A stretch of DNA of 64,000 nucleotides from Magnetospirillum sp. (GTDB taxonomy: Bacteria > Pseudomonadota > Alphaproteobacteria > CACIAM-22H2), in NCBI GenBank assembly GCA_027532905.1, contig JAPZUA010000002.1:806001-870000 (forward strand). The letters run 5' to 3'. The notes beneath the pieces were generated by a model. The model was given only the letters and a program-made list of their open reading frames with translations. It was not told the origin of the DNA and searched no databases. Numbering within the stretch: position 1 is the stretch's first letter; each line of letters starts with the position of its first letter. Shown here one piece after another: positions 12,005 to 52,308 of this stretch. The position numbers and the translations under genes are program-made.

Positions 12005-12900
12005 CCGCCTCGCCGAACCACGCTCAAGTCGAAGAACCTGAAATCACCGAAACGCCGGAAGCCGCCGAGGCGCCCGAAACCGCCGAAGCGGTCGAAGCGC
12101 CGGCTGCGGCTGAGGGTTCGGGCGAGGCCGCACCGGATGCCGCGTTTGCGGCCGACGAATTGCCGCCAGAGGAGTTGCACGCCCAAGCCTTGCGCGTCGT
12201 CGAAGCGCTGATCTTTGCATCAGCCGAGGCCTTGACGGTGCGCGAGATTTCCAAGCGCTTGCCCAAGAGCGTGGATGTCAAAGCCATCTTGGCCGAACTT
12301 GAGGCGCATTACGCACCGCGCGGTGTCAATCTCGTGCGCATTGCGGGCAAGGTTGCGTTCCGCACCGCTGCGGATATTGCCGACCGTCTCAAGATCGAGC
12401 GCGTACAGACGCGCAAATTGAGCCGTGCGGCCCTCGAAACGCTGGCAATTATTGCTTATCAAACAGCTGAGGATCGCCCGGTAACGCGCTCTGAAATAGA
12501 AGAAATTCGCGGCGTTGCCTTGTCCAAAGGTACGCTCGAAGTTCTGATGGAGGCCGAATTTGTCGGCCCTAAAGGCAACCGCGAAACGCCGGGTCGCCCG
12601 GTGACCTATGCCGTCACCGATCGCTTCCTTGAGCATTTTGGCCTCGATAGCATCAAATCGCTGCCGGGCCTCAAAGAGCTGCGCGATTTGGGCTTGCTCG
12701 ATACGCGGCCGGCCGTCAGCGCCTACAGCGAGGACAGCGGCCTGTCCGTCCTGCCCGAAATGGGCGAGGCGGCCGAAGCCGAGACGGGCCCGATCGATGA
12801 CCGCGAGATGGCAGCCGAAGACGCCGAACCGGCCGAGCCGGACATCGCGCAAGCCGAAGAAGCAGCGGTCGAGACGCCGCCGCAGCCCGAACGGCCTTAA
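12001..12900 (+). CDS. scpB: Segregation and condensation protein B
   Basis: 299 residues. The core (about 55-225) has the two winged helices of ScpB (ALRVVEALIFASAEALTVRE, then RAALETLAIIAYQTAEDRP and TRSEIEEIRGV), which dimerise and clamp ScpA. Both ends carry long acidic Ala/Glu/Pro-rich tails (residues 1-50 and 240-299) that look disordered. It directly follows scpA with a four-base overlap. The ABC ATPase gene starts 12 bases after its stop. Confidence 0.93.
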   Translation: MTASPNHAQVEEPEITETPEAAEAPETAEAVEAPAAAEGSGEAAPDAAFAADELPPEELHAQALRVVEALIFASAEALTVREISKRLPKSVDVKAILAELEAHYAPRGVNLVRIAGKVAFRTAADIADRLKIERVQTRKLSRAALETLAIIAYQTAEDRPVTRSEIEEIRGVALSKGTLEVLMEAEFVGPKGNRETPGRPVTYAVTDRFLEHFGLDSIKSLPGLKELRDLGLLDTRPAVSAYSEDSGLSVLPEMGEAAEAETGPIDDREMAAEDAEPAEPDIAQAEEAAVETPPQPERP

Positions 12901-17342: not shown

Positions 17343-18455
17343 ATGCCGGCGCGTTCGTTTCGTATTTTGCTTTGCGGTGCAGCACTCGCCGCATTGGCTG
17401 CTTGCGCGCGCAGCGGCCCGCCGGCCCCGGTTACGATCGGCAGTGCACAGCCGCCGGCAGCAAACGCTGCCCGCACGGCCGCACCTGCCACACCGATCGC
17501 CCCAGGCTCGGCCTATATCGTGCGCGACGGCGACACGCTGTTCACGGTCGCGCGACGTGCAGGCGTGCCGACGCGTGCCTTGATCGATGCCAACCGCCTC
17601 AATCCGCCTTACGCGCTTGAGCCCGGCACGCGCCTTTCAATCCCGAATGTGAATGTGCACGAGGTGCGCAGCGGCGACACGGTCTCGCAGTTGGCGCAGC
17701 GCTACGGCGTGCCGATGCGCGAGCTTGTGCGCGTAAACGCAATCGAGCCGCCCTATACGATCCGTGTGGGCCAGCGTCTCGTGATCCCGGAAACCGCGCG
17801 GCCAGAAAGCGTGCGCAATGTCGTGCCGACTCCGGCACCTGCACCCGCCGTTGCCGCCGTGGCGCCGCCACCGCCTCAGCCGCCATCTCAGCCGCAGACG
17901 GTCGTTTCAAATCCCGCTCCAGCGCCGCAAGCTGCGACGGCACCTGCAGCACCTGCGCCTGCACCGCAGATTGCGTCCGTGCCGCCCGCCGCCGCATCTG
18001 TCCCACCGCCGGCTCCTGCAAATCCGCCGGCGGCACCGGCCGGCAGCGACACGGCTGTCTCAGCCGGGCGCATGCTGTGGCCCGTGCGCGGCGTGGTGAC
18101 ATCCGATTTCGGCCCCAAGCCGGGCGGCTTGCAGAACGACGGCGTGAATATCGCCGCCCCGCGCGGCACGCCGTTTCGTGCGGCCGAAAGCGGCGTTGTG
18201 ATCTATGCCGGCAACGAGTTGCGCGGCTTCGGCAATCTGCTGCTGCTGCGCCACGAAGGCGGCATTGTGACCGCCTATGCGCATGCCGACGAATTATTGG
18301 TCCAGCGCGGCGATCAGGTGCGGCGCGGGCAGACGATCGGGCGGGTCGGGGCGACCGGCAACGTGACGACGCCGCAGCTGCATTTCGAGGTGCGCCGCGG
18401 CACGCGCGCGGTCAATCCGATCGAGTTTCTGGGATCGGTCTCGGCAGCCAACTGA
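17343..18455 (+). CDS. nlpD: NlpD-like lipoprotein: two LysM domains and degenerate M23 (LytM) domain
   Basis: 370 residues. A lipoprotein signal (MPARSFRILLCGAALAALAA, lipobox ending in Cys 21) is followed by two LysM repeats (about 57-103 and 107-153; YIVRDGDTLFTVARRAG and HEVRSGDTVSQLAQRYG), a Pro/Gln-rich linker and a C-terminal LytM/M23 domain (about 245-370). The first zinc ligands of active M23 peptidases are replaced (QNDGVNIAAPRGTPF has Asn where His and Asp are expected), while the later QLHFEVR is kept. This matches NlpD/EnvC-type activators of amidases rather than hydrolases. A role in septal peptidoglycan splitting is inferred. ATG 17343 sits after AGGAGG. Confidence 0.86.
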   Translation: MPARSFRILLCGAALAALAACARSGPPAPVTIGSAQPPAANAARTAAPATPIAPGSAYIVRDGDTLFTVARRAGVPTRALIDANRLNPPYALEPGTRLSIPNVNVHEVRSGDTVSQLAQRYGVPMRELVRVNAIEPPYTIRVGQRLVIPETARPESVRNVVPTPAPAPAVAAVAPPPPQPPSQPQTVVSNPAPAPQAATAPAAPAPAPQIASVPPAAASVPPPAPANPPAAPAGSDTAVSAGRMLWPVRGVVTSDFGPKPGGLQNDGVNIAAPRGTPFRAAESGVVIYAGNELRGFGNLLLLRHEGGIVTAYAHADELLVQRGDQVRRGQTIGRVGATGNVTTPQLHFEVRRGTRAVNPIEFLGSVSAAN

Positions 18456-40186: not shown

Positions 40187-40262
40187 GAGCCCGTAGCTCA
40201 ATTGGTAGAGCACGACACTTTTAATGTTGGGGTTCCGGGTTCGAGTCCCGGCGGGCTCACCA
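40187..40262 (+). tRNA. tRNA-Lys (anticodon TTT)
   Basis: All arms pair: acceptor GAGCCCG (40187-40193) with CGGGCTC (40252-40258), D-stem GCTC/GAGC, anticodon stem CGACA/TGTTG around loop CTTTTAA (anticodon TTT at 40220-40222, reading AAA/AAG), T-stem with TTCGAGT loop. Discriminator A is followed by encoded CCA (40260-40262). Its 3' end is repeated at 46382-46415, so it appears to be an integration site. Confidence 0.96.
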
Positions 40263-40263
40263 A
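40230..40263 (+). repeat. Left copy of a 34-bp direct repeat (att-like, in tRNA-Lys 3' end)
   Basis: Covers the T arm, the 3' acceptor strand, CCA and one further A of tRNA-Lys. Matches 46382-46415 at 31 of 34 positions in the same orientation. This is the classical location of tyrosine-recombinase attachment sites. Confidence 0.75.
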
Positions 40264-40298
40264 CCTTCGTTCGGAGATTCGCTAAGTGCTGCGGCGGG

Positions 40299-40829
40299 TT
40301 AATTGCGCCCGTCAACGCGCAGTATGTTCTTTAATGCGGCCAAGACGTCGTCGAGCAGAATATCGTCGATCGGCGTCGCTTTGCGAAGGTCGTGCGAACT
40401 CTCCGCAGTCCGGGCCCGATCGGCGCTTCGGTTCCTTGACGCCGTCTGAAGTGCGACCGCGCGCGATACCGTATCGACGACATTGATTGGATCGAGCGGT
40501 TTAAGCAGCACAGCCGATACGCCGAGTTTCAGCGCGTCGACGGCCGTATGCCTTTCAGGATGTCCGGTTACGAGAATGAAGCCCGCACCGCCCCCGCGTT
40601 CGCGGCACAAGCGGATCATCTCAAGAAATTCGAGGCCGTCGCAATCGGGCATTCGGATGTCGGACACGACGACGCGGATGTTCGCATCGTCGAGAAATTT
40701 GATGATGCCGTCTGCCGCGCAATGGGCGCTACTGGTCTGGATGCCGACTGCGGCAAGCAAAAGACAAAGCTCCTCCGCGCAGTTCGCATCGTCGTCGACA
40801 ACCAGCACTTTGCAGGGATCGGCACTCAC
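40299..40829 (-). CDS. Response regulator, REC domain with short C-terminal extension
   Basis: 176 residues. A receiver domain fills residues ~5-125: KVLVVDDDANCAEELCLLLA (acidic pocket), VVSDIRMPDCDGLEF with phospho-acceptor Asp 57, and LLKPLDP with the conserved Lys 110. The remaining ~50 residues (SRNRSADRARTAESSHDLRK onward) are polar and match no DNA-binding domain I know, so this is a single-domain regulator. GTG start at 40829, with no strong SD. It is a close paralogue of the regulator at 41642-42067 (both begin MSAxxCKVL) and follows the degenerate kinase gene. Confidence 0.85.
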   Translation of the reverse strand: MSADPCKVLVVDDDANCAEELCLLLAAVGIQTSSAHCAADGIIKFLDDANIRVVVSDIRMPDCDGLEFLEMIRLCRERGGGAGFILVTGHPERHTAVDALKLGVSAVLLKPLDPINVVDTVSRAVALQTASRNRSADRARTAESSHDLRKATPIDDILLDDVLAALKNILRVDGRN

Positions 40830-40835
40830 GGCAAG

Positions 40836-41645
40836 TCAGTCCCACTGCTTCGGCGCGACATATGGCAAGTTGATTTCGACCGTCGTTCCGACGTCCAGCT
40901 TGCTCGTCAACCAGATGTTTCCCCTATGGTATTCGATGTACTTCTTCGCCATTGCGAGCCCGTGCCCAGATCCGAGATGGCATCCCGCTGCGGCGGAAGC
41001 GCGACGATGAAATGGCCGAAAGACTTCTTCAAGATCTTCGTGCGGAATGCCGATGCCTCGATCGGCAACGGTAACTACAATTCCGCGTTCAGCTGTCCGG
41101 GTCGTCCAAACATCGACGACGCCATTGGGCTTTGAGAATTCAATTGCGTTGCGGATTACGCTTCGTAGCGCGCATCGAATACGCAACGCATCGATCATAC
41201 AGCTGGGCAGATCGGTATCCAGCGACAGCTGAATGGAAATTCCGAACTGCTCGGACATCGGCGTCAGTCGTGCGACGACATCCAAGATCAAGTCGTTTAC
41301 GCACAGTGACCTGATTGCGGGCGGCAACCGACCGTCTTCGATGTCGGCTATGTCGGATGCGTTGTCGAGAAGGTCGAGAAGCTGATTGCCTGCGGTGTTT
41401 ATGTGGGCGACCAGATCGTCCGTCTGGCAAAGATCGCCGACGGCGGACGGGGTATCGGATTTTTCCAGAAGGAACGCCGAGAGCCGAATTATCGCGTTGA
41501 GAGGTGCTCGAGATTCTTCGACCAATCTGGAAAAAAGCCGAGCTTTGGACATCTGGACGTCTTCATTCGCGTCCCCGCCATTGTCGAGTTGGGGCGGCAG
41601 ATCGCGATGCGGCGCTCGTCTCGGGACGGAGGGGGACAAGATCAC
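40836..41645 (-). CDS. Histidine kinase-like protein lacking the phospho-acceptor histidine
   Basis: About 269 residues, soluble. A HisKA-like helix (SRLVEESRAPLNAIIRLSAF) aligns with HELRAPLNAILGFSEI of its neighbour paralogue, but the histidine is replaced by Glu 43 (codon GAA at 41519-41517). The ATP-binding domain looks intact: N box RSVIRNAIEFSKPNG, G1 ADRGIGIP, F box VFRPFHR and G2 GSGHGLAMAKKYIEYHRGN. It may thus act as a phosphatase, a decoy or a dimer partner rather than an autokinase. The GTG start at 41645 overlaps the TGA of the upstream regulator with AGAAGG just before; ATG 41552 is an alternative. Confidence 0.78.
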   Translation of the reverse strand: MILSPSVPRRAPHRDLPPQLDNGGDANEDVQMSKARLFSRLVEESRAPLNAIIRLSAFLLEKSDTPSAVGDLCQTDDLVAHINTAGNQLLDLLDNASDIADIEDGRLPPAIRSLCVNDLILDVVARLTPMSEQFGISIQLSLDTDLPSCMIDALRIRCALRSVIRNAIEFSKPNGVVDVWTTRTAERGIVVTVADRGIGIPHEDLEEVFRPFHRRASAAAGCHLGSGHGLAMAKKYIEYHRGNIWLTSKLDVGTTVEINLPYVAPKQWD

Positions 41646-42067
41646 GAGACCTTCTTGGACTGGCTGAAATTGACCAACTCCATCTGGATGTCGATCGCCT
41701 TGGAAACAGCGCTGACGATCTCGACCGGATCGAGCGGCTTCATCAGCATTGCCGACGCGCCAAGATTGAGCGCGTCGATCGTGGTGTGCAGATCGGGCTG
41801 CCCCGTCACAAGAATTACGGTTGCGTCGATGCCGCGACCGCCCGAACTGCGGATCTGGTCGAGAAGCCGGACACCGTCGCAATCCGGCATGCGTATGTCC
41901 GAAACGACGATCCTCACATTCGGGTCGCGCAGAAAATGGCGTATACCGTCGGCCGCAGAGAGTTCGTGCTCGGTGGGAAAGCCTGCAGCCGCCAGCAGCA
42001 GACACAACTCTTCAGCACAGCTTGCATCGTCGTCGATGATAAGCACTTTGCACAGCGCAGCGGACAT
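41642..42067 (-). CDS. Response regulator, single REC domain
   Basis: 141 residues made up almost only of a receiver domain: KVLIIDDDASCAEELCLLLA, VVSDIRMPDCDGVRL with Asp 57 and MLMKPLDPVE with the conserved Lys. No output domain, so it is CheY/Spo0F-like and should signal by protein contact or phosphorelay. ATG 42067 has AAAGGTGAG upstream; a GTG at 42076 is also in frame. It lies between two kinase genes, its start near the stop of the intact kinase and its stop overlapping the start of the degenerate one. Confidence 0.86.
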   Translation of the reverse strand: MSAALCKVLIIDDDASCAEELCLLLAAAGFPTEHELSAADGIRHFLRDPNVRIVVSDIRMPDCDGVRLLDQIRSSGGRGIDATVILVTGQPDLHTTIDALNLGASAMLMKPLDPVEIVSAVSKAIDIQMELVNFSQSKKVS

Positions 42068-42072
42068 TTCTC

Positions 42073-43017
42073 TCACCTTTCCGACGTCGTGGTGGCGAAA
42101 GGCAGCTCGATGGTCACAGTGGTGCCGACGTTCCGCTCGCTTGACAGCGTGATGTGGCCGCTGTGCTGCTCGACGAACCGCTTTGCATAGGTCAAGCCAA
42201 GCCCGGCGCCGTCATATCTTCGCGTGAACAACGAGTCGCCATGGTGAAACGCCTTGAATACATGAGCGATATCCGCAGCGCTGATCCCGACACCCGTGTC
42301 CGACACGGTGATGGCGGCATTGCCGGAACTCGCGCGAGAGAGCCGAACAGTGACAATCCCATTTTTGTTCGAAAACTTGATCGCGTTGTCGACAACGCTT
42401 CGGAGCGCCTGGCGGATACGGGCCGCATCGATCGAGCAGTTCGGAAGTTCGGCATCGAGATCGGTTCGAATCTGCACGCCGAACTGCGACGCGAGCGGTT
42501 GCAGCCGCGCCACGACATCGGCGACGAGACCGCCGAGGCAAGTCGGGGAAGGGCGAACGTCGCGTGCATTCTCTTCGATGGTCGCAAGGTCGAAGATGCT
42601 TTCGACGATGTCGAGAAGCTGGTGGCCCGCGCTGTTGAGGTGTCCGGCGAACTCGGTTTGCCGCGCGACCTGAAGCGGACCTTGGACGCCGACGGCGTTG
42701 TCGGCGAGAATCTCGGAAAAGCCGAGGATCGCGTTGAGGGGCGCGCGAAGCTCGTGGTTCATATTGGCAAATAACGCCGCTTTGGTGCGGTTGGCCGCTT
42801 CGGCCGCCTCTTTAGCGGCATTCAGCGCAGCACTCGCCTCGCCGGAAACCGAGGCGGGCATCTCCCGGAAGTTGGTTTGTGCGCTCGCGCGGGCAGACGA
42901 AAGAGCAGGGCGCAGCCGCCGAATGCCCATTCGGAGCGTCAATTTCGCCTCGCCGCTGACGCCTGGGCCATTGGCACCCGGTCCGTTTGCGCTCGGTTTC
43001 AGCATCTGCTTCGACAT
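42073..43017 (-). CDS. Soluble histidine kinase
   Basis: 314 residues, no membrane helix or recognisable sensor domain. An Ala/Gly-rich N-terminus (1-60) leads into a coiled-coil-like helix (EASAALNAAKEAAEAANRTK) and HisKA with His 88 in ANMNHELRAPLNAILGFSEI. The ATPase domain carries RSVVDNAIKFSNKNG, VSDTGVGIS, VFKAFHHGD and GAGLGLTYAKRFVEQHSG. Likely input is another protein, possibly the membrane kinase encoded divergently. First gene of the minus-strand set of four; the next start overlaps its stop region. Confidence 0.88.
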   Translation of the reverse strand: MSKQMLKPSANGPGANGPGVSGEAKLTLRMGIRRLRPALSSARASAQTNFREMPASVSGEASAALNAAKEAAEAANRTKAALFANMNHELRAPLNAILGFSEILADNAVGVQGPLQVARQTEFAGHLNSAGHQLLDIVESIFDLATIEENARDVRPSPTCLGGLVADVVARLQPLASQFGVQIRTDLDAELPNCSIDAARIRQALRSVVDNAIKFSNKNGIVTVRLSRASSGNAAITVSDTGVGISAADIAHVFKAFHHGDSLFTRRYDGAGLGLTYAKRFVEQHSGHITLSSERNVGTTVTIELPFATTTSER

Positions 43018-43121
43018 CCGACTAAGCCCATCCTGCTTTTTGCGCCCGATTGCGCCAACACGCCGTTAATCGCCTGTTAAGCACGCTAGTCGCACTTTGG
43101 ACCGGCCGACAGGACAGTCTG

Positions 43122-43146
43122 GTTCAGTTTGGACTCCAATCTGAAC
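43122..43146. promoter_or_regulatory. 25-bp near-perfect palindrome in the divergent kinase promoter region
   Basis: GTTCAG-T-TTGGA-C-TCCAA-T-CTGAAC: 11 of 12 half-site positions pair around a central C. It lies 105 bases upstream of the minus-strand kinase start and 16 bases before the plus-strand kinase ATG (43163). An operator for the island-encoded MarR-type regulator is a natural guess; a 5'-leader hairpin blocking ribosome access is the alternative. Confidence 0.6.
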
Positions 43147-43162
43147 TTTGACGGGGATCGAC

Positions 43163-45394
43163 ATGGGCCGTTTTGTCCCGGTAGAACATGTTCGCTTTAT
43201 TGTCATGGGATCAGGACAACAGCATCGAAATGGCCGGGCCCCCGTGAACGCAACCCACAAACCCTTCGGACCTTTGGCCAATGCCTCGGGACGTCTGCTC
43301 ACGGTGCTGGCGATCGCCGTGGCGCTGTCTGCCGCGATCATGCTTGGCGCGGTCGGGTTGACCAAGCGCGCGGAACAGGAGTTCGAAAGCCGCGCCGTTC
43401 TCCAGGTTAAATACGAAACGCAACTGTTCGAGGTCTTCACCCGAAGTCTGCTTCAGCGCTTCGACCAGGTGCTGATGCTCCTCCGCGAGGAAGTGCTCGA
43501 CGACGGCCCTCCGGTCGACATCGCGACATGGTCGGCACGGCGGGGCGTGCTGCGCGAACCGGTTTTCCAGATCGCCGTGATCGGCGCAGACGGAAAGCTG
43601 CTCGCCACCACTGAAAACGCCTCGAGCATCGGCGTCGATCTGTCGGATCGCGAGCATTTCAGCGTGCATCGCGACACGGACGCCGATCGCATGTTCATCA
43701 GCAAACCGCTTGTCGGGCGCGCGTCCGGGCGCTTGTCCTTGAACATCAGTCGACCGGTACGAAACGCAAGCGGCCGGTTCCTGGGCGTGGTCGTCGTTTC
43801 GATCGATCCCCGGCTTTTCTCCGACTTCCTCGAAATTCTGGGCGAGCCCAACAACACGCTCGTCAATCTTTTCGGGCTGGACGGCATCATCCGCGCGCGC
43901 GCGCCAAGCGGTCCTGGGGGGCAGTACATCGGCGGCTCGATCGCCGGCTTCGAAGTCGAGGCGTTGGTAAAGGTTGCGTCGGAAGGGACGTTTCGAACCG
44001 CCAGTCGGCTGGACAAGGTGGAACGGATCTTCGCCTTCCGACGTCTGGACGACATTTCGCTGACGGTTCTCGTCGGCAAGAATACCGATGCCGTGTTTGC
44101 GGACTTCTACGACCAACGCCGTCTCTACCTCATGATCGGCTTTCTGTCGGCCGCCTTCGTCATTGGTCTTGCCGTTCTGTTCGAAATCTTTCTGCGTGCG
44201 CAGGACAGGATCCGGGTCGGCGACGCGCTGGCTGCGTTGCAGAAACAGCAATCGACGGACCTCATCGGTATCATGGACGGCTGCGGTGCGGCCCTCGTCC
44301 AAACCGACGCAGCAGGCCAGATCGCAGCCTGCAATTCGGCGTTCGCCGTGATGTTCGGCGTCACGAATCGCAGCGCGTTGGTCGGGCGGCACTTCGACTC
44401 CGTGGTCGCGGCAGGCGGCCTTGTTTCCGACCAATTGGGTCAGTTCAGCAGAATTCGATCTGCCGACGAGTATCCCGTGCGTTTCGAGTCTTCGTTCGTG
44501 CCGAACGATGTCGCAAGTCTGCGGCGCGACATTATGTGGAGCTGGACGCAGAGCAAGACGGGCATGGATCCAACAGTCAGATTTATTGGTGTTGGCATCG
44601 ACAATACCGAACTGCGCGCCAAAGAGATGATGTTCATCCAATCGGCAAAATTGGCATCGCTCGGGCGGCTGGCGGCAACGCTCAACCACGAGATGGTCCA
44701 GCCGCTGAACGTGGTCCGGCTCGGACTTGCGAACCTAACCACGCTTATCGAGCGGGGCGCGCCCAAGGAAGACCTCCTGGCGCGCGCCGGCAAAGCCGTC
44801 GAAAACATCCATCGCACGGGTAGCATCCTTAAGCGCTTTCGTTCGCTGATCCGGCAAGACAGGAATGTCGTCGAAATTGCCAAGCTATCGGATGCGATAC
44901 ACGCGGCAATCGGCATGTACGAAGAACAGTTTCGGATCGACGGAATCAATCTGATTGTCGAGACGGACATCGGGTGCGAACTCGAATGCAGTCGCATCGA
45001 GCTTGAGCAGGTCTTCGTGAATTTGCTCGCGAACGCCTACGACGCAATTCTGCGGCACCGTTTGGAAGGCAAGGCGAATCCGGGTTCCCGAGCGCGCGCG
45101 CCGGACATGGTCAGGATCCGCATGGAAACGGGTCCTGGGGCGCCGGAAATCGTGCGAATATTCGTCGAGGACAGCGGCGGGGGTATTCCTGCCGACATTA
45201 TCGCGAATATCTTTCAGCCGTTTTTCACCACACGGTCCGGAAGCGGCGGCACCGGTCTCGGATTGGCCATATGCCGGGCAACGGTCGAAAGCCTGAAAGG
45301 GACGATCGAAGTGTCGAATGTCGATCGCGGCGCCTGCTTCGTCGTGTCGCTGCCGATACGCGCGGACGCTGCCGCGGCAACGCTTGCCTCATAG
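43163..45394 (+). CDS. Membrane histidine kinase with periplasmic Cache-type sensor and PAS domain
   Basis: About 743 residues. TM1 (~45-67, LLTVLAIAVALSAAIMLGAV) and TM2 (~320-345, LYLMIGFLSAAFVIGLAVLF) enclose a ~250-residue periplasmic region of double-Cache type (FQIAVIGADGKLLATTENAS, HFSVHRDTDADRMFISKPLV, GRFLGVVVVSIDPRLFSDFL). A cytoplasmic PAS follows (~370-490), then HisKA with His 509 in TLNHEMVQPLNVVRLGLANL and an ATPase domain with QVFVNLLANAYDAILRH, EDSGGGIP and GGTGLGLAICRATVE. Such kinases sense small extracellular ligands. The REC-MarR gene 24 bases downstream is the likely cognate regulator. ATG 43163 chosen; TTG 43148 and ATG 43205 are alternatives. Confidence 0.88.
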   Translation: MGRFVPVEHVRFIVMGSGQQHRNGRAPVNATHKPFGPLANASGRLLTVLAIAVALSAAIMLGAVGLTKRAEQEFESRAVLQVKYETQLFEVFTRSLLQRFDQVLMLLREEVLDDGPPVDIATWSARRGVLREPVFQIAVIGADGKLLATTENASSIGVDLSDREHFSVHRDTDADRMFISKPLVGRASGRLSLNISRPVRNASGRFLGVVVVSIDPRLFSDFLEILGEPNNTLVNLFGLDGIIRARAPSGPGGQYIGGSIAGFEVEALVKVASEGTFRTASRLDKVERIFAFRRLDDISLTVLVGKNTDAVFADFYDQRRLYLMIGFLSAAFVIGLAVLFEIFLRAQDRIRVGDALAALQKQQSTDLIGIMDGCGAALVQTDAAGQIAACNSAFAVMFGVTNRSALVGRHFDSVVAAGGLVSDQLGQFSRIRSADEYPVRFESSFVPNDVASLRRDIMWSWTQSKTGMDPTVRFIGVGIDNTELRAKEMMFIQSAKLASLGRLAATLNHEMVQPLNVVRLGLANLTTLIERGAPKEDLLARAGKAVENIHRTGSILKRFRSLIRQDRNVVEIAKLSDAIHAAIGMYEEQFRIDGINLIVETDIGCELECSRIELEQVFVNLLANAYDAILRHRLEGKANPGSRARAPDMVRIRMETGPGAPEIVRIFVEDSGGGIPADIIANIFQPFFTTRSGSGGTGLGLAICRATVESLKGTIEVSNVDRGACFVVSLPIRADAAAATLAS

Positions 45395-45418
45395 CATCAT
45401 CTCGACGAGTGCCGAAGC

Positions 45419-46294
45419 ATGCAGATAAATCAGCAAGCAGAAGATGCCGTAAAAATCCTCGTCGTGGACGACGAGGAATGTGCCGTGGAAGAACTTGTTT
45501 TTGCGCTTTGTGCTGCCGGGTTCAACGCCATCGGCGCGAATAGCGCTTCGCGGGGGCTCGAATGTTTTCTGAAGGACGATCGCATCGGCGTCGTCGTTTC
45601 CGACATTCGAATGCCCATGCAGGACGGCATTGGTTTTCTTCAAAAGATTCGGCGATGCGGCGAACGCGGTGCAGCTTGCTCGCTCATCCTGATGACGGGG
45701 TTTCCGGAGATCTCGAGCGCCATCGAGGCCATCGATCTGCGGGTCGCGAGGTATCTTCAGAAGCCATTCGAGCCCGACGAGGCGCTTGCCGTCGTCGCCG
45801 CCGCTGTTTCGAGTTACCGACGCGCCGTCGAAGCGTCGGACGCCAACGATGCGGCGGTCTCGGCACTGCGCGCACTCTTGCTCGCACCGACGCCTGGCGC
45901 TGCGTCGACAGAAACCGCCAAACCGGGACACGGTGCAGAGACTCCGGAGAACCGCGAGCAACGTCGGACCGAAACCCTCAGATCTCTGCTCCGCTTCCGC
46001 AAGCAGCGATCCGAGTTTTTGCCGCAGGAGATGTTCGGGGATCCTGCTTGGTTCATGTTTCTCGAGCTTGCACTCCTCGAAAGAAGCGGCAAGGCGACGT
46101 CGGTGTCAGGCTTGTGCATGTCTGCGAACATTAGCCAGACAACGGCGCTGCGGCGGATACAGGACATGGTCGAGGCAGGGCTTATCGTGCGCCACGAGGA
46201 CCCGCGCGACAAGCGTCGCTCGCACATCAATCTGACGACTGAGGCGAATGAGCGACTGAACCAGCTTCTAGATCGCGCTGCAATCGATGCTTGA
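45419..46294 (+). CDS. Response regulator with MarR-like winged-helix output domain
   Basis: 291 residues. A receiver domain (1-130: KILVVDDEECAVEELVFALC, VVVSDIRMPMQDGIGF with Asp 62, RYLQKPFEPDEALA with Lys) is joined by a linker (~135-200) to a winged helix (~205-290). The latter has the MarR-type DNA-reading helix and wing: MSANISQTTALRRIQDMVEA, GLIVRHEDPRDKRRSHINLT and a C-terminal dimer helix. REC domains are usually joined to OmpR, NarL or Fis helices, so this combination is unusual. It is the only DNA-binding protein of the island and the probable regulator of the divergent promoters. Confidence 0.82.
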   Translation: MQINQQAEDAVKILVVDDEECAVEELVFALCAAGFNAIGANSASRGLECFLKDDRIGVVVSDIRMPMQDGIGFLQKIRRCGERGAACSLILMTGFPEISSAIEAIDLRVARYLQKPFEPDEALAVVAAAVSSYRRAVEASDANDAAVSALRALLLAPTPGAASTETAKPGHGAETPENREQRRTETLRSLLRFRKQRSEFLPQEMFGDPAWFMFLELALLERSGKATSVSGLCMSANISQTTALRRIQDMVEAGLIVRHEDPRDKRRSHINLTTEANERLNQLLDRAAIDA

Positions 46295-46381
46295 ATTGTA
46301 TCACCCATGCATTTCCGACGATTTCGACCTTCAAAAAGGTTGAGCGCAATTTGCGCAAGATCTGCAGAGATCGTCGTGCTT

Positions 46382-46415
46382 GGGTTCTGGGTTCGAGTGC
46401 AGGCGGGCTCACCAA
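46382..46415 (+). repeat. Right copy of the 34-bp direct repeat (tRNA-Lys 3' end remnant)
   Basis: Same orientation as 40230-40263, identical except for T for C at its seventh base, and G and A for two of the three Cs after GTTCGAGT. It includes GGCGGGCTCACCAA. No 5' half of a tRNA precedes it, so it is not a gene. Confidence 0.75.
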
Positions 46416-46438: not shown

Positions 46439-46966
46439 TTACCGCTGGAATATCAGCGTGCCGCCGGTCTCGGGCGCGTTGGCGAATGATGTGACGCGCA
46501 TCGGATCCAGATTGTCGCTCGCCCAAACGATGCAAAAGCCGCCCAGCAGCACGGCGATCGAGCCGTCGGGCTCGGCAAGCGGCAGCACGAGGCGTCGATA
46601 GCTAGCATAGGCACTCGTCTCGCTGGCGAGACGCGAGGCGTAGTAGCCAGGGCGGCGCTCGCCTGCCACTGTCGCGAAAAGATGGACGAGGTCGTCGTAC
46701 GTCTTGCCCGTCCGCATCTCTTCGAGCCGGCGCCCGGTAAACGAAACGCCCAAATGTGCGTCGATCGCCGTTCCGACCAGCCGGTACCGAAATGCGCCTT
46801 CCGGCAGCACGTCCATCAGAAAGAGATTCGGCATCACGCGCGGAATCGCGAACGGATCGAAGGCGGCGCGCGGCGGCGCCTCGCCTTGGGCCAGCGACCG
46901 CCAATGGCGGTACAGCGCCTGCAGATCCGGATGGTCGATTACTTCGTCGAACGTCACGTGCCGCAT
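46439..46966 (-). CDS. PAS_5-family protein
   Basis: 175 residues forming one PAS-like domain of the PAS_5 (PF07310) type common in alphaproteobacteria: LQALYRHWRSLAQGEAPPRA, FDPFAIPRVMPNLFLMDVLP, FRYRLVGTAIDAHLGVSFTG and a C-terminal VLLGGFCIVW strand. No output domain or membrane helix. Role unknown; probably binds a ligand or partner protein. It is the first gene outside the tRNA-Lys island and shares its strand with the LOV-like kinase and chemoreceptor beyond. Confidence 0.8.
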   Translation of the reverse strand: MRHVTFDEVIDHPDLQALYRHWRSLAQGEAPPRAAFDPFAIPRVMPNLFLMDVLPEGAFRYRLVGTAIDAHLGVSFTGRRLEEMRTGKTYDDLVHLFATVAGERRPGYYASRLASETSAYASYRRLVLPLAEPDGSIAVLLGGFCIVWASDNLDPMRVTSFANAPETGGTLIFQR

Positions 46967-47076
46967 GCCCGCAAAAAGTCATTGTTGCTTTTTTCTCTAC
47001 AATCCGGAGCGGGGGCAGCGCCAGAACAATCTTCGCCGTCCGCCATACAATTGCATGGCGCACCGGAATACGGCGA

Positions 47077-49215
47077 CTAGTTCGCCATCAGCGGCAGTTC
47101 CGGCGGCGCGGCCGGCAGATCGAGGGCCGCAACGGCGCCCACGGCCGCGTTTTCGATCGTGAGTTCGCCGTCCATGCGCTTGGCAAGTTCGACCGCGATC
47201 GACAGTCCCAAGCCCGCACCGCCTTTGTCGGCGACGAACGACGACTTGCCGAGGAAAGGCTTGCCGATCTGCGTCAGAAGGTCGGCGGCGAACCCCGGCC
47301 CGTCGTCGGCGACCTCCAGGCGCACGCGCGCCCCCGGTGCTGTCGAAAGGCGCGCCACGATCTGTCCGCCTGCACGGCCGTGGCGGGCGGCATTCGCGAG
47401 CAGATTGACCGCGATTTGCCGGAAAGCGAGCGCGTCGCCGAGTGCGGCAAGCCCCGGCTCGGCCTCGATCTGGAGCTTGGCGCCGGTTTTGCTCGTTTCG
47501 GCCGCCGCCAAAGCCGCCGCCTTGGTAAGTTCGATCGCGGGGTCGAATCGTTCGACCGCAACGGCGCGTACACCCTGCTGCAGGCGCGCCATCTCGAGAA
47601 CGTCTTCGACGATCGCCAACAGGTGCCGGCCGCTCGCCGCAATGTCGTCGACGTAGTCGCGGTGGCGTTTGTCGAGCGTGCCGTTGATACCCATCAGCAT
47701 CAGATCGGCATAGCCGATCACGGCATTGAGCGGCGTGCGCAGCTCGTGGCTCATGCGCGCCAGGAACGAGTCCTTGGCGCTGTTGGCGGCCTCGGCGCGC
47801 TGGACGAGTGCGCGCAAGCGCTCCTCCATTTCCACACGCGGCGTCACGTCCGAGAACGCGCTCACGAACGCCCGCAAGTTGCCCTCGGCGTCGCGCACGG
47901 GGGCGATGCTGAGGTCGGCCCAATAGGGCGTGCCGTCTTTGGCGTAGTTCAGAATATCGACGCGAACCGGGCGGGCGGCGGCCACCGCCTCGCGGATTTT
48001 CGCGACGGTCGCAGACGACGTGCCCGGCCCCTGCAGCATTCGGCAATTGTAGCCGACGAGTTCGTCGATCGAATAGCGCGTGATGCGTTCGAAAGCGCGG
48101 TTGACATAGACGAGCTTGGCGTCGTCGGCTGCCGCGATGGCGATGGCGTTGTCGGCGATCGACATCGACTGCAGCAGCAATTCGCGTTCGGCAATCACGC
48201 GGTTGCGCCGCCGCAGTTCGAAGGCCGAATAGCCGCCGCCGGCGAGCGCAAGCGCCAGTGCGATCGCGCCGAACAGCAGCAACTGTCCGCGGCCGAACAG
48301 CGCCGACGCCAGAATGTCCCTTTCGCCGCGGGCCGAAAGCACGAGCAGGTCGCGGTTGGGCGACAGCGCAAAACCGCCCATGCGGCGCACCCCGTCGAAA
48401 GGCGAAACAGCGGGATAGTAACCCTCCAATTCGCCCGCTCTGTATTTGATGTAGACAGGCCGGTCGCGCGCATCGGTGCCCGCGATGTCGAACGCGAGAT
48501 CGGGGAAGCGGAACAACGCGACGCCGTCTTCCCGCAAGACCAAGAGCGTGCGCTCGCGCAGCGAGAAGGCCTTGTCGGTCGCCTCGCGCAGGCGAACCAG
48601 ATCGATCGACAGCGAAACCAGACCGAGCAACGCGCCGTCGCGGCCGACCACGCGATGATTGACGGCGAAAGCCGGACGCCTTCCGACAATGGAACCTTGC
48701 GTGGCGGAGAGTTCGAAATCGGCGCCGCTTTCGAGCATGCGCGGCAGGGAGAGCCGAATTGCGTCGGCAATCTGCGCCTCGGTGGCGCTGCTGGCCGCGA
48801 GAAATTGCCCATTTGCGTCGATGATCTTGAGAGCGAGGAACTGCGGTTCGAGCGCCAGATTTTCAGCGGCTGCCACGACCGCCGCGCGCGCGCCGTCGTC
48901 CGGATCGCTCGCCTCGCGCCATGTCTTCGCAGCGATGGCAATGACTATTTTGGCCGTTCGGATCGACTGGTCGATCTGCTGCGAGACCAGCCGGGCGACC
49001 ACGATCTCCTCGCGACCGGCATCCTCGAGCAGACGGTTGCGCACCGCACTCGCCACGCCCAGGATCGCCGAACCGGCGATCGCGAAGGCAAGCACCGCGA
49101 CGACCGAAAAACGCCGCAGCGCGCCGGGCGGCAGACGGCGAAAAAACGACTTGCGCTGATGCGCGACGCCGAGAGTCAAGGTCGGCACCCTTGCGTCGCG
49201 CAGGCAGAGCGCCAC
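47077..49215 (-). CDS. Membrane histidine kinase with periplasmic Cache domain and LOV-like domain
   Basis: 712 residues. TM1 ~36-57, periplasmic double-Cache region ~60-305 (VARLVSQQIDQSIRTAKIVI, FLALKIIDANGQFLAASSAT), TM2 ~309-330, then a PAS domain ~350-460 with LOV features: GYNCRMLQGPGTS (Cys 391 at the flavin-adduct site, codon 48045-48043), the downstream TVAKIREAV arginine and ILNYAKDGTPYWADLSIAPV with the flavin-contacting Asn. HisKA follows with His 490 in RMSHELRTPLNAVIGYADLM and the ATPase domain with NLLANAARHGRAG, DDGPGF and GAGLGLSIAVELAKRMDG. A kinase integrating an external chemical and blue light is inferred. GTG 49215 is the first start; GTG 49188 is possible. Confidence 0.85.
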   Translation of the reverse strand: MALCLRDARVPTLTLGVAHQRKSFFRRLPPGALRRFSVVAVLAFAIAGSAILGVASAVRNRLLEDAGREEIVVARLVSQQIDQSIRTAKIVIAIAAKTWREASDPDDGARAAVVAAAENLALEPQFLALKIIDANGQFLAASSATEAQIADAIRLSLPRMLESGADFELSATQGSIVGRRPAFAVNHRVVGRDGALLGLVSLSIDLVRLREATDKAFSLRERTLLVLREDGVALFRFPDLAFDIAGTDARDRPVYIKYRAGELEGYYPAVSPFDGVRRMGGFALSPNRDLLVLSARGERDILASALFGRGQLLLFGAIALALALAGGGYSAFELRRRNRVIAERELLLQSMSIADNAIAIAAADDAKLVYVNRAFERITRYSIDELVGYNCRMLQGPGTSSATVAKIREAVAAARPVRVDILNYAKDGTPYWADLSIAPVRDAEGNLRAFVSAFSDVTPRVEMEERLRALVQRAEAANSAKDSFLARMSHELRTPLNAVIGYADLMLMGINGTLDKRHRDYVDDIAASGRHLLAIVEDVLEMARLQQGVRAVAVERFDPAIELTKAAALAAAETSKTGAKLQIEAEPGLAALGDALAFRQIAVNLLANAARHGRAGGQIVARLSTAPGARVRLEVADDGPGFAADLLTQIGKPFLGKSSFVADKGGAGLGLSIAVELAKRMDGELTIENAAVGAVAALDLPAAPPELPLMAN

Positions 49216-49499
49216 CCGGCGGCTTGCAGGGCATCCCAGCCATGCATCGCAATTTTTTGCTGAAGGCTCGGCGACCTGCTGGGCACCGAAATGCCAAACA
49301 TTGGTATTTCTTTCTGGACGTAGGGCGACCTACGAATGCATTCAGGTAGATTGTATTTATTTGTGCAATTGGAGGGAATTGCAAGCAGAATGCGTTCCAA
49401 TATGATTTAAAGATTCACATTAACCCTTTGTAAACAATTGGGATATGCGGCAGCACGGCGACGGCGAGGGGCTTGCCCCGCCGCCGCCGGCTTGGCGCC

Positions 49500-51524
49500 T
49501 TAGGCCGCGCGAACTTCCGTAAGGAAACTCGTCACCGAGCGGCGCAGATCGCTGGACTGCGTGCCCAATGTCGAGGCGGCGTCTTTGACCTGGCTTGCGG
49601 ACGTGCCGGTTTCGCTGGCGGCTTGCGTCACGCCCGCGATGTTCGAGGAGACTTCGTTGGTGCCTGCAGCGGCCTGCTGCACGTTGCGCGCGATCTCCTG
49701 CGTCGCTGCACCCTGTTCCTCGACCGCCGAGGCAATGCCGGTTGCGATCTCGTTCATCTTGGCGATGGTCTGCCCGATCGCGCGCATTGCTTCGACCGAT
49801 GCGCCGGTTGCCGTCTGGATTTCGGCGATCTGGCCGCCGATTTCGTCGGTCGCCTTTGCCGTCTGGCTCGCGAGGTTTTTGACTTCCGACGCGACGACGG
49901 CAAAACCCTTGCCGGCATCGCCCGCGCGCGCCGCTTCGATCGTGGCGTTGAGGGCGAGCAGGTTGGTCTGCGAGGCGATGCTGGAGATGAGCTTCACCAC
50001 GTCGCCGATCTTCTGGGCGGCAACCGCCAGCTTCTCGACCGTCTCGCTGGTGCGCGCCACGTCCTCGACCGCCTGGCCGGTAATGCGGCTCGATTCCGAG
50101 ACCTGGCGCGAAATCTCCGTGATCGAGCTCGAAAGCTCTTCGGCGGCCGAGGCCACCGTCTGCACGTTGGTCGAGGCCTGCTCGGAGGCAGCGGCAACGG
50201 CGGTCGCCTGGCGGCTCGTTTCCTCGGCCGTGGCCGACATCGCACCCGCCGAGACCTGCAGCTGTTGGGCCGCACTCGACACGCCGGCGACGACGCTGCC
50301 GACTTCGGCTTCGAAACGGTCGGCGAGGGCGGCCATGGCGGCTTTCTTTTCAGCCAACGCTTTGGCCTCGAGTGCCGCTTGTTCGTCCTCGAGCGCTTTG
50401 ACGCGGATGGCGTTGTCTTTGAACACCTGAACCGCCTTCGCCATCGCGCCGATTTCGTCCTTGTTGTCTTTGGACGGAACTTCCGTTGCGAGATCGCCGC
50501 CGGCAAGGCGACCCATCGCCGCCGTCATGGCGCCGACCGGCCCCGTAATGCCTTTGGCGATCCCAAACGCAGCCAGCAGCCCCAGAACGAGCGCAATCGC
50601 CGACAGCGTCAGCATGGTCGCCACACCTTCTTGCACTTCGTCGGCTGCTTCGGCGTCGATCTGCGTCGTCGCGGCTTTCTGGCGTTCCTTCAGCGTATCG
50701 ATGCGCTCGGCCACGCGCGCGGCGACCTGCGCATTCGTCGTGTTCACGAGTTCGTCCATTGCGCGCACGGCCTCCGTCGCCTGGCGGAAGGCAGCGAGAT
50801 AGCGCGGGGCGATTGCGGCGGCCTGCTCGACCAGCGCGCGGGGCTCGCCGCTTGCGCCGTCGCGCGCCCGCGCCAAATCCTGGTTGAGCTCGTTCATCTG
50901 GCGCTCCGCCGCCTGGATCAAGGCCGGATCCGGCTTGATCAGATAGCGCAGCGCGTTGAGGCGAACCAAGCCGAGCTCTTCTTGCGCCTTGCCGACATAC
51001 GCGGCCGCGCGGTAATCGCCGGCTGCAATGGCGCTATCCATCGCGTTTGTGAGCGCCGTTCGTGCCTGCAGGCCCAGTTCGTTCATGCCGCGATCGACGG
51101 CTGCGACCTGCGCTTCGCGCAGCTGGTACATGCGATCGAGATTGCGCATGTACTCTTCGAAAGCCGCCTGCGCTTCGCGCGCAATGGCGCGGCGTTCCTC
51201 CGAAAGGATCGAGGCGATCGCCGCTGCGAGATCCTGGCGTATCGAAACTGCCGCCTTGTCGATATTGGCGCGGTCGGCGGCGGCGCCGTCGTCCGCGTAG
51301 CGCACCACGGAGCGCCGCATCGCCTGGAAGTCGGCGTCGACGTCACCCATGCGGATCGTATTTGTGCTCACCGAGCTGTAGCGGGCGAAGAGCGTTTTTG
51401 TGTCGGTCAGGCCGTTCCACCCGAACAGACCTACGGCGGTGAGAAGAACGAGAATGAGGGCAAAACCGGCGCCGATACGCGTGCCGATGCGGATATTGCT
51501 GTTGAGCGAGGCGAGGAACGACAT
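49500..51524 (-). CDS. Methyl-accepting chemotaxis protein with helical periplasmic sensor
   Basis: 674 residues. TM1 ~12-35 ([20 protein letters not shown]), periplasmic helical region ~36-300 resembling a long helical bimodular or HBM-type sensor, TM2 ~303-325 ([20 protein letters not shown]), HAMP ([20 protein letters not shown]) and a long coiled-coil signalling domain with the tip [20 protein letters not shown] and [20 protein letters not shown]. It reports periplasmic ligands to CheA. It ends [20 protein letters not shown] without a CheR-tethering pentapeptide. It shares its strand with the LOV-like kinase. Confidence 0.93.
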
Positions 51525-52014
51525 GGTGGGGAGGGCTCTCCGGTTCTGGGTTCTGCAATCCGCAGTTTTCGCGGCTTGTTTGGTTGTTCTCTTAAGTAGT
51601 TTTCTTTTTAAACTTTTCGATGAAAAGTTAAGCGAGGCTAATGACTACTGTTGTAGGACGTGTTGTATACATTAGTTTCTGGTAAACCGCTTCGCAATGG
51701 TATAAATAAAAACAGACTTGTAAAATATTGTTATTAAACAGTTTTTGTAATTTTTCGATTTTCTACTTAGTCTGAAGTATATGACTAAAAAGCGGCCATT
51801 ATTTGCATTTTGCGAATAAAAAGGCGCCGACCGGAATCCGAATCCGGCTTGTGGCGACACCGCGTATTCGACCTACGCGGCCATGGCACACGCCATTGCT
51901 TCCGGTGCGGGAAATCCAGCGCGACTGGCGCAGGCCCGGAAAACTCGCTACAAACCGCGCGCGGTCGATCAGCGGCTTTGCGGAAGATTCGGGCGGCAGA
52001 ATTCGGAGACGGGA
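51525..52014. other. 490-base gap with an AT-rich core
   Basis: No credible gene. Bases ~51590-51830 are strikingly AT-rich for this GC-rich window, with runs such as TATAAATAAAAA and TTTTTGTAATTTTT. The segment lies between the divergent chemoreceptor and DUF1488 genes and should hold their promoters. Bases 51840-52010 are GC-rich and open in frame with the DUF1488 gene but show no family similarity. Confidence 0.6.
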
Positions 52015-52308
52015 ATGGCGTTGGATTTCGGGGGCGCTCGCGCCCAGTTCGACAATATGAAGGGCGGCGTCGTGATCGAGGCGCGCGATGGCGCCAAGGT
52101 CGTGCAGTTCACGGTCGACCAGCGCGCTTTGGCCGATCTCGAAGGGGTTACCAGCACCTCGCCGGGGGCGCTCGTTTCGATCTACCGTTCGAACATGGCG
52201 CGCATCCACAAGGTCGCCTCGGTCATGTATGAGGCCGGCGAAATCGACCCCAAACTCGGCTACCACATCACGTCCGACCGCCTCAACGGCGTCAAACGCA
52301 AGGGCTAG
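52015..52308 (+). CDS. DUF1488-like protein
   Basis: 97 residues. The pattern MALDFGGARAQFDNMKGGVV, a beta-rich middle (IEARDGAKVVQFTVDQRALA), then YRSNMARIHKVASVMYEAGE and YHITSDRL fits the small DUF1488 family; function unknown. ATG 52015 gives the family start and follows GAGACGGGA; the open frame upstream to 51883 looks unrelated. The ppa start lies 7 bases after the stop, suggesting an operon. Confidence 0.72.
   Translation: MALDFGGARAQFDNMKGGVVIEARDGAKVVQFTVDQRALADLEGVTSTSPGALVSIYRSNMARIHKVASVMYEAGEIDPKLGYHITSDRLNGVKRKG

Follow-up and report, generated by a model that had tools for sequence, protein, structure and literature searches.

A two-component signalling cassette between tRNA-Lys and a displaced copy of its 3' end in Magnetospirillum

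Gene content downstream of tRNA-Lys

The 64-kb stretch of Magnetospirillum DNA analysed here (the window; its genome is designated G000, other genomes of the genus G001 to G010) carries an intact tRNA-Lys gene followed by six genes on two divergent strands (A-B-C-D minus, E-F plus) and then by a second copy of the tRNA 3' end (Table 1). The initial annotation had described this cargo as two-component genes and nothing else, which profile searches confirmed, all six genes matching response-regulator, HisKA/HATPase, dCache or MarR-type profiles. The interval thus combines histidine kinases with receiver-domain regulators, as expected of a two-component signalling cassette, with the refinement that kinase B is devoid of the phospho-acceptor histidine of the H-box. 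The profile search detected no sensor domain in gene D, the start of gene C overlaps the stop of gene D, and the start codon of gene E is uncertain, an alternative being located near position 43246.

Table 1. Features of the tRNA-Lys locus (window positions).
Feature	Position	Strand	Remarks
tRNA-Lys(ttt), intact	40187..40262	+	ARAGORN; sole tRNA called within the 64-kb window
Putative attachment-site core, 3' part of tRNA-Lys	about 40213 (anticodon stem) to 40263	+	
Left copy of the 34-bp direct repeat, tRNA-Lys 3' end	40230..40263	+	
A, response regulator	40299..40829	-	receiver domain and short tail, without output domain
B, degenerate histidine kinase	40836..41552	-	ATPase domain retained, H-box histidine lost (VEESRAPLN)
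C, single-domain response regulator	41642..42076	-	paralogue of A
D, histidine kinase	42073..43017	-	HisKA and HATPase, intact H-box (NHELRAPLN)
E, histidine kinase	43148..45394	+	dCache-like sensor region and HATPase
F, response regulator	45419..46294	+	receiver and MarR-type winged helix
Right copy of the direct repeat	46382..46415	+	displaced, decayed tRNA-Lys 3' end (attR scar)
Flank past the scar	46439..51524	-	PAS_5 protein, PAS histidine kinase, MCP
DUF1488 gene	51883..52308	+	G007 homology begins near 52024

Genes A-B are a tandem duplicate of C-D, B being the paralogue of D. The phospho-acceptor histidine is missing from B in the window and in the sister species G003, and in G002 the H-box region is absent altogether. 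With a dN/dS of about 0.2, B is a possible pseudokinase that has lost its H-box histidine and whose ATPase domain is kept under purifying selection. The dN/dS of gene A (0.37-0.51) denotes relaxed constraint and that of genes C-F, 0.11-0.27 wherever orthologues are complete, purifying selection. The genes would be retained for function, and we infer both ligand and phosphotransfer partners: E is probably a sensor of a periplasmic ligand and the kinase of the DNA-binding regulator F, with which it forms a conserved adjacent pair, and D probably phosphorylates the single-domain regulator C, B-A representing a presumably decaying tandem copy of this D-C pair.

Elsewhere, the same genome has a second cassette of this kind with four genes (G000:C6:217961-222713, corresponding to L075:7961-12713), where divergent RR-HK and HK-RR pairs, 61-64% identical in E and F and with a GC content of 55%, are flanked by an MCP-like and a flagellin-like gene; ARAGORN found no tRNA at that locus. 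More distant E-F pairs are present in G006, G007, G008, and G010.

A decayed tRNA end and the age of the insertion

The recurrence of the last 34 bases of the tRNA-Lys region beyond gene F, at 31 of 34 identical positions, was verified by direct reading. A search of the whole 4.26-Mb draft genome with the tRNA retrieved, besides the tRNA itself, two matches only, the right repeat (E 5.4e-7) and an unrelated 23-bp match; the right repeat, the single further tRNA-Lys tail copy of the genome, is therefore not a product of chance, and its alignment score of 58 compares with a shuffle maximum of 27. Its three mismatches all lie in the T arm and disrupt pairs of the T-arm stem, so that the right copy is a decayed fragment. 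An orthologous decayed repeat is found at the same junction in G003, in which a trace persists indicating that the ancestral right repeat extended back to the anticodon loop. In G002, the right repeat was not found beyond the cassette. A shuffle-scored search for more scars, made at additional junctions in the region (G003 17577-17660, G002 18234-18360, window 51520-51890, and junctions in G005 and G009), gave scores that stay within the shuffle range. An intact tRNA on one side and a displaced, equally oriented 3' fragment on the opposite side, as at this locus, characterize tRNA-site genomic islands.

Composition sets the cassette apart as well. The GC content of positions 40264-46381, a check proposed in the initial annotation, is 59.4-59.5%, the minimum among all 6.1-kb stretches of the window (mean 63.8%, sd 1.4), and in all four carrier species the cassette has a lower GC content than its upstream flank. 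These carriers are G000 and its three closest relatives, G002, G003, and G004, all with the six genes in identical order downstream of the same tRNA-Lys (in G004, the contig ends inside E). In five other members of the genus (G001, G005, G007, G009, and G010), different genes follow the tRNA-Lys and the six genes were not found at the site. Recent acquisition by the strain of the window is rejected, the cassette being common to three sister species. With respect to G003, the dS of genes C-F (0.36-0.59) is similar to that of the PAS_5 and kinase genes beyond the scar (0.45-0.48). Because the genes stand at the same place in the sister species and, for G003, show flank-like divergence, the insertion most simply predates the split of G000, G002, G003, and G004; the similarity in dS would also be compatible with an old transfer among sister species. 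Consequently, the proposal of a tRNA-site island holds as regards the displaced tRNA end and the recurrent use of the site (see below), but not as regards recent delivery of a mobile cassette.

This conservation in all three closest relatives, together with the flank-like divergence from G003, might suggest that the cassette was inherited vertically as an ordinary part of the chromosome and that the repeat arose by chance. Such an explanation is hardly credible, since the repeat is unique in the genome and beyond chance and has its decayed orthologue at the same junction of G003, and since five further members of the genus were found without these genes at the site. The GC content of the cassette, below that of the upstream flank in every carrier, also speaks against it.

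The simple empty site sought in sister strains, with tRNA-Lys directly followed by sequence like that from 46416 onward, was not found in the relatives compared. The nearest case is G007, where a DUF1488 gene begins 65 bp after tRNA-Lys; the same gene lies ~11.6 kb from tRNA-Lys in the window, so that the cassette and the PAS_5/kinase/MCP genes are either later additions or losses in G007, a clean absence being seen just for this larger 11.6-kb block. On its far side, the variable site is bordered by conserved genes, DUF1488 and ppa just after it. No close orthologue of the PAS_5/kinase/MCP flank was found at the site in outgroups, and this flank may represent an earlier layer of that variable site.

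Other tRNA-Lys tail copies and their viral counterparts

In G003 and G004, tRNA-Lys is followed by a newer insert, a good copy of the tRNA tail, and then the six-gene cassette. The insert of G003 (3.5 kb) carries an MCP gene and a PAS_5 gene, and that of G004 (8 kb) encodes a transporter, an aminotransferase, a nitrilase-type hydrolase, two LysR regulators, a glyoxalase-type protein, and a PrlF-YhaV toxin-antitoxin pair. The tail copies that end these inserts are 43/47 and 50/51 identical to the tRNA, from the anticodon stem-loop to CCA. The PrlF-YhaV pair of G004 (L046:9959-10875), near the right end of the 8-kb module, may stabilize it. Three further tail copies occur in G009, beside a phytochrome kinase, and in G010, beside metabolic genes, on contigs of fragmented MAGs that are separate from those with the tRNA, so their distance to the tRNA is not readable. 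The tRNA of G009 (G009:C28:940-1016) has the acceptor stem GAGCCCG/CGGGCTC and the displaced tail (G009:C107:215-262) reads CGCGCTC, as in sister species, possibly reflecting a compensated exchange after integration.

In the five copies of G003, G004, G009, and G010, the stretch similar to the tRNA extends from tRNA position 27-31 to position 76, while positions 1-26 match at only 4-10 of 26 bases and the upstream sequence is unrelated. These boundaries are the footprint of an anticodon-loop attachment site, a type described for tyrosine integrases (PMC4383910). They also bear on the alternative that tandem duplication once produced a second tRNA-Lys gene of which the right repeat remains, with ordinary insertions between the two genes. 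G002 provides an argument for it: between a DUF3108 gene and the cassette lies a decayed full-length tRNA-Lys with its 5' flank (L035 reverse complement 12359-12435), which is not a product of integrase action. Tandem duplication as a general model is nevertheless very improbable, as the five other copies stop at the anticodon stem-loop with unrelated 5' sequence and share a right-end motif, and we retain the G002 copy as an exception. On these sequence comparisons, tRNA-Lys is a recurrent insertion point in the genus.

The shared motif, CATTGAWWT, occurs at the five fresh right ends in the same register, 24 bases before tRNA position 29, although the G009 right end matches it at 7 of 9 positions only. 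The best 10-column sum is 43/50 versus a null maximum of 35 in 2000 draws. In 23 genomes of the order, the motif plus tail pattern matched four of the five fresh ends and nothing else (reversed control, 0), the fifth deviating by two bases. The motif was not found at the right repeat of the window or its G003 counterpart and the window repeat is also short, so the link of the six-gene module to the corresponding integrase group is one of analogy.

Ten matches to the same pattern were found in viral contigs of IMG/VR (L095-L104), versus 0 and 0 for two changed motifs. These attP-like tRNA-Lys(ttt) sites resemble those of the genus in having CATTGAWWT, located 18-20 bases 5' of CTTTTAA, followed by tails of varied tRNA-Lys(ttt) sequences. 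Since the motif was part of the search pattern, its presence in the viral sites is by construction, and the evidence consists of ten matches against none and of the nearby integrases: five of the ten sites (L096, L097, L100, L101, and L104) have a gene for a PF00589 tyrosine integrase no more than about 1.2 kb away, and L098 has an integrase-like fragment without Pfam match. The attachment sites of the genus therefore probably belong to a phage-type integrase group, whose identity we infer from this similarity. Among the proteins scanned, the modules of the genus, unlike these viral loci, include no integrase and no phage proteins. The exact genus-type 45-base tail was not found in viral contigs, nor did the attachment core match plasmid and phage collections. 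The sequence GACTTAG occurs 11 bases after CCA plus the next base in L096, L097, L098, and L100, and in a weaker form in L101.

Modules without integrases

As already noticed in the initial annotation, no integrase gene adjoins the tRNA, and the profile search gave no Phage_integrase match between the repeats or elsewhere within the window. This family is present in all 11 genus genomes, at 11 places in G000. The contigs of G002, G003, G004, G009, and G010 bearing the tRNA or its copies are likewise free of Phage_integrase matches, so that the absence is a property of the site and is not peculiar to the cassette of the window. We rejected the idea of integrases hidden as remnants, as tblastn with six integrases against the modules yielded just short weak matches and recovered the positive control.

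According to the best reading of these data, to which we assign a probability of roughly 0.77, insertion at tRNA-Lys has been recurrent, through integrases that have since disappeared or that operate in trans, and the cassette is one old module that has become fixed there. Site-specific recombination of the anticodon-loop type that tyrosine integrases carry out would have placed the six-gene block at the 3' end of tRNA-Lys(ttt); the incoming end of the block would have restored the tRNA and displaced the original 3' end rightward, where it would have decayed at 46382-46415. As the tRNA presumably stayed a usable target, later elements could in some species insert next to it, ahead of the older cargo. 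Either each module would have lost its integrase, or the enzyme would have come from elsewhere, for instance a phage acting in trans.

A variant that we consider unlikely holds that the modules are cis-mobilizable or satellite-like, never bore an integrase, and continue to be mobilized by one supplied in trans, for example that of temperate phages targeting tRNA-Lys. It is consistent with eight tail-type scars in six genomes without any integrase or remnant, with the right-end motif in common with viral attP-like sites, with a prophage-like contig in G010 encoding a related integrase (36-37% identity), and with the intactness of the fresh copies (43/47 and 50/51). However, no conserved left-end motif was seen when the aligned ends were inspected by eye, and loss of the integrase after insertion produces the same picture. 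Among the helper candidates, the contigs examined for the G010 prophage-type integrase and other integrases of the genus carry no tail copy. Rather doubtful, too, is the broader idea that tRNA-Lys serves the genus as a plug-in site for small cargo-only modules, several of them sensory, that never had their own integrase and are perhaps still moved by phage integrases in trans.

Turning back to the old, fixed module, comparable layered islands are already known. In Dehalococcoides (McMurdie et al. 2011, PMC3146451), islands likewise stand in tandem downstream of a single RNA gene, and a repeat of the 3' end of that gene delimits each of them; a 15-bp motif adjoins the repeat, 15 islands without integration module have been termed possible cis-mobilizable elements, and the region past the outermost repeat looks fixed. 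There, however, the target is the tmRNA gene ssrA (T-loop) and the enzyme a serine recombinase retained by many islands (PMC3146451), whereas the Magnetospirillum target is tRNA-Lys (anticodon loop), the viral relatives of the site have tyrosine integrases, and no module examined retains one. Tail repeats of tRNA-Lys also accompany a variable, growing additive flexible genomic island of Methylophilaceae (PMC10872708), which differs in its tRNA-Lys (ctt), 20-bp repeats, bacterial lineage, and cargo mostly of unknown function. Islands of the Islander type with anticodon (A) sublocation share with the window the intact tRNA, the opposite displaced 3' fragment of right orientation and length, and the anticodon attachment, but their definition demands an integrase inside the island (PMC4383910) and the window's island, in whose interval no PF00589 match occurs, would be filtered out. 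It has the tRNA border of tycheposons without their tyrosine recombinase, and conforms to cis-mobilizable elements (CIMEs) in having attL and attR flanks and no integrase or transfer genes, its right site being decayed. Because of this decay, the window's own copy is unlikely to have attachment sites that still function.

Such islands are lost to searches that, like Islander, require an integrase, and the combination of tRNA-tail copies, cross-species comparison of boundaries, and a shared attachment motif can expose integrase-less layers, tied here to a viral attachment-site pattern. The case also shows how the stepwise addition of small modules at a single tRNA can enlarge a sensory repertoire, the island of the window, old and fixed, being of narrower interest. 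In G006:C3, a different tRNA-Lys gene, of the ctt type (L118:3305-3380), lies next to a gene for a relative (29%) of the viral integrase and is a possible active integration site.
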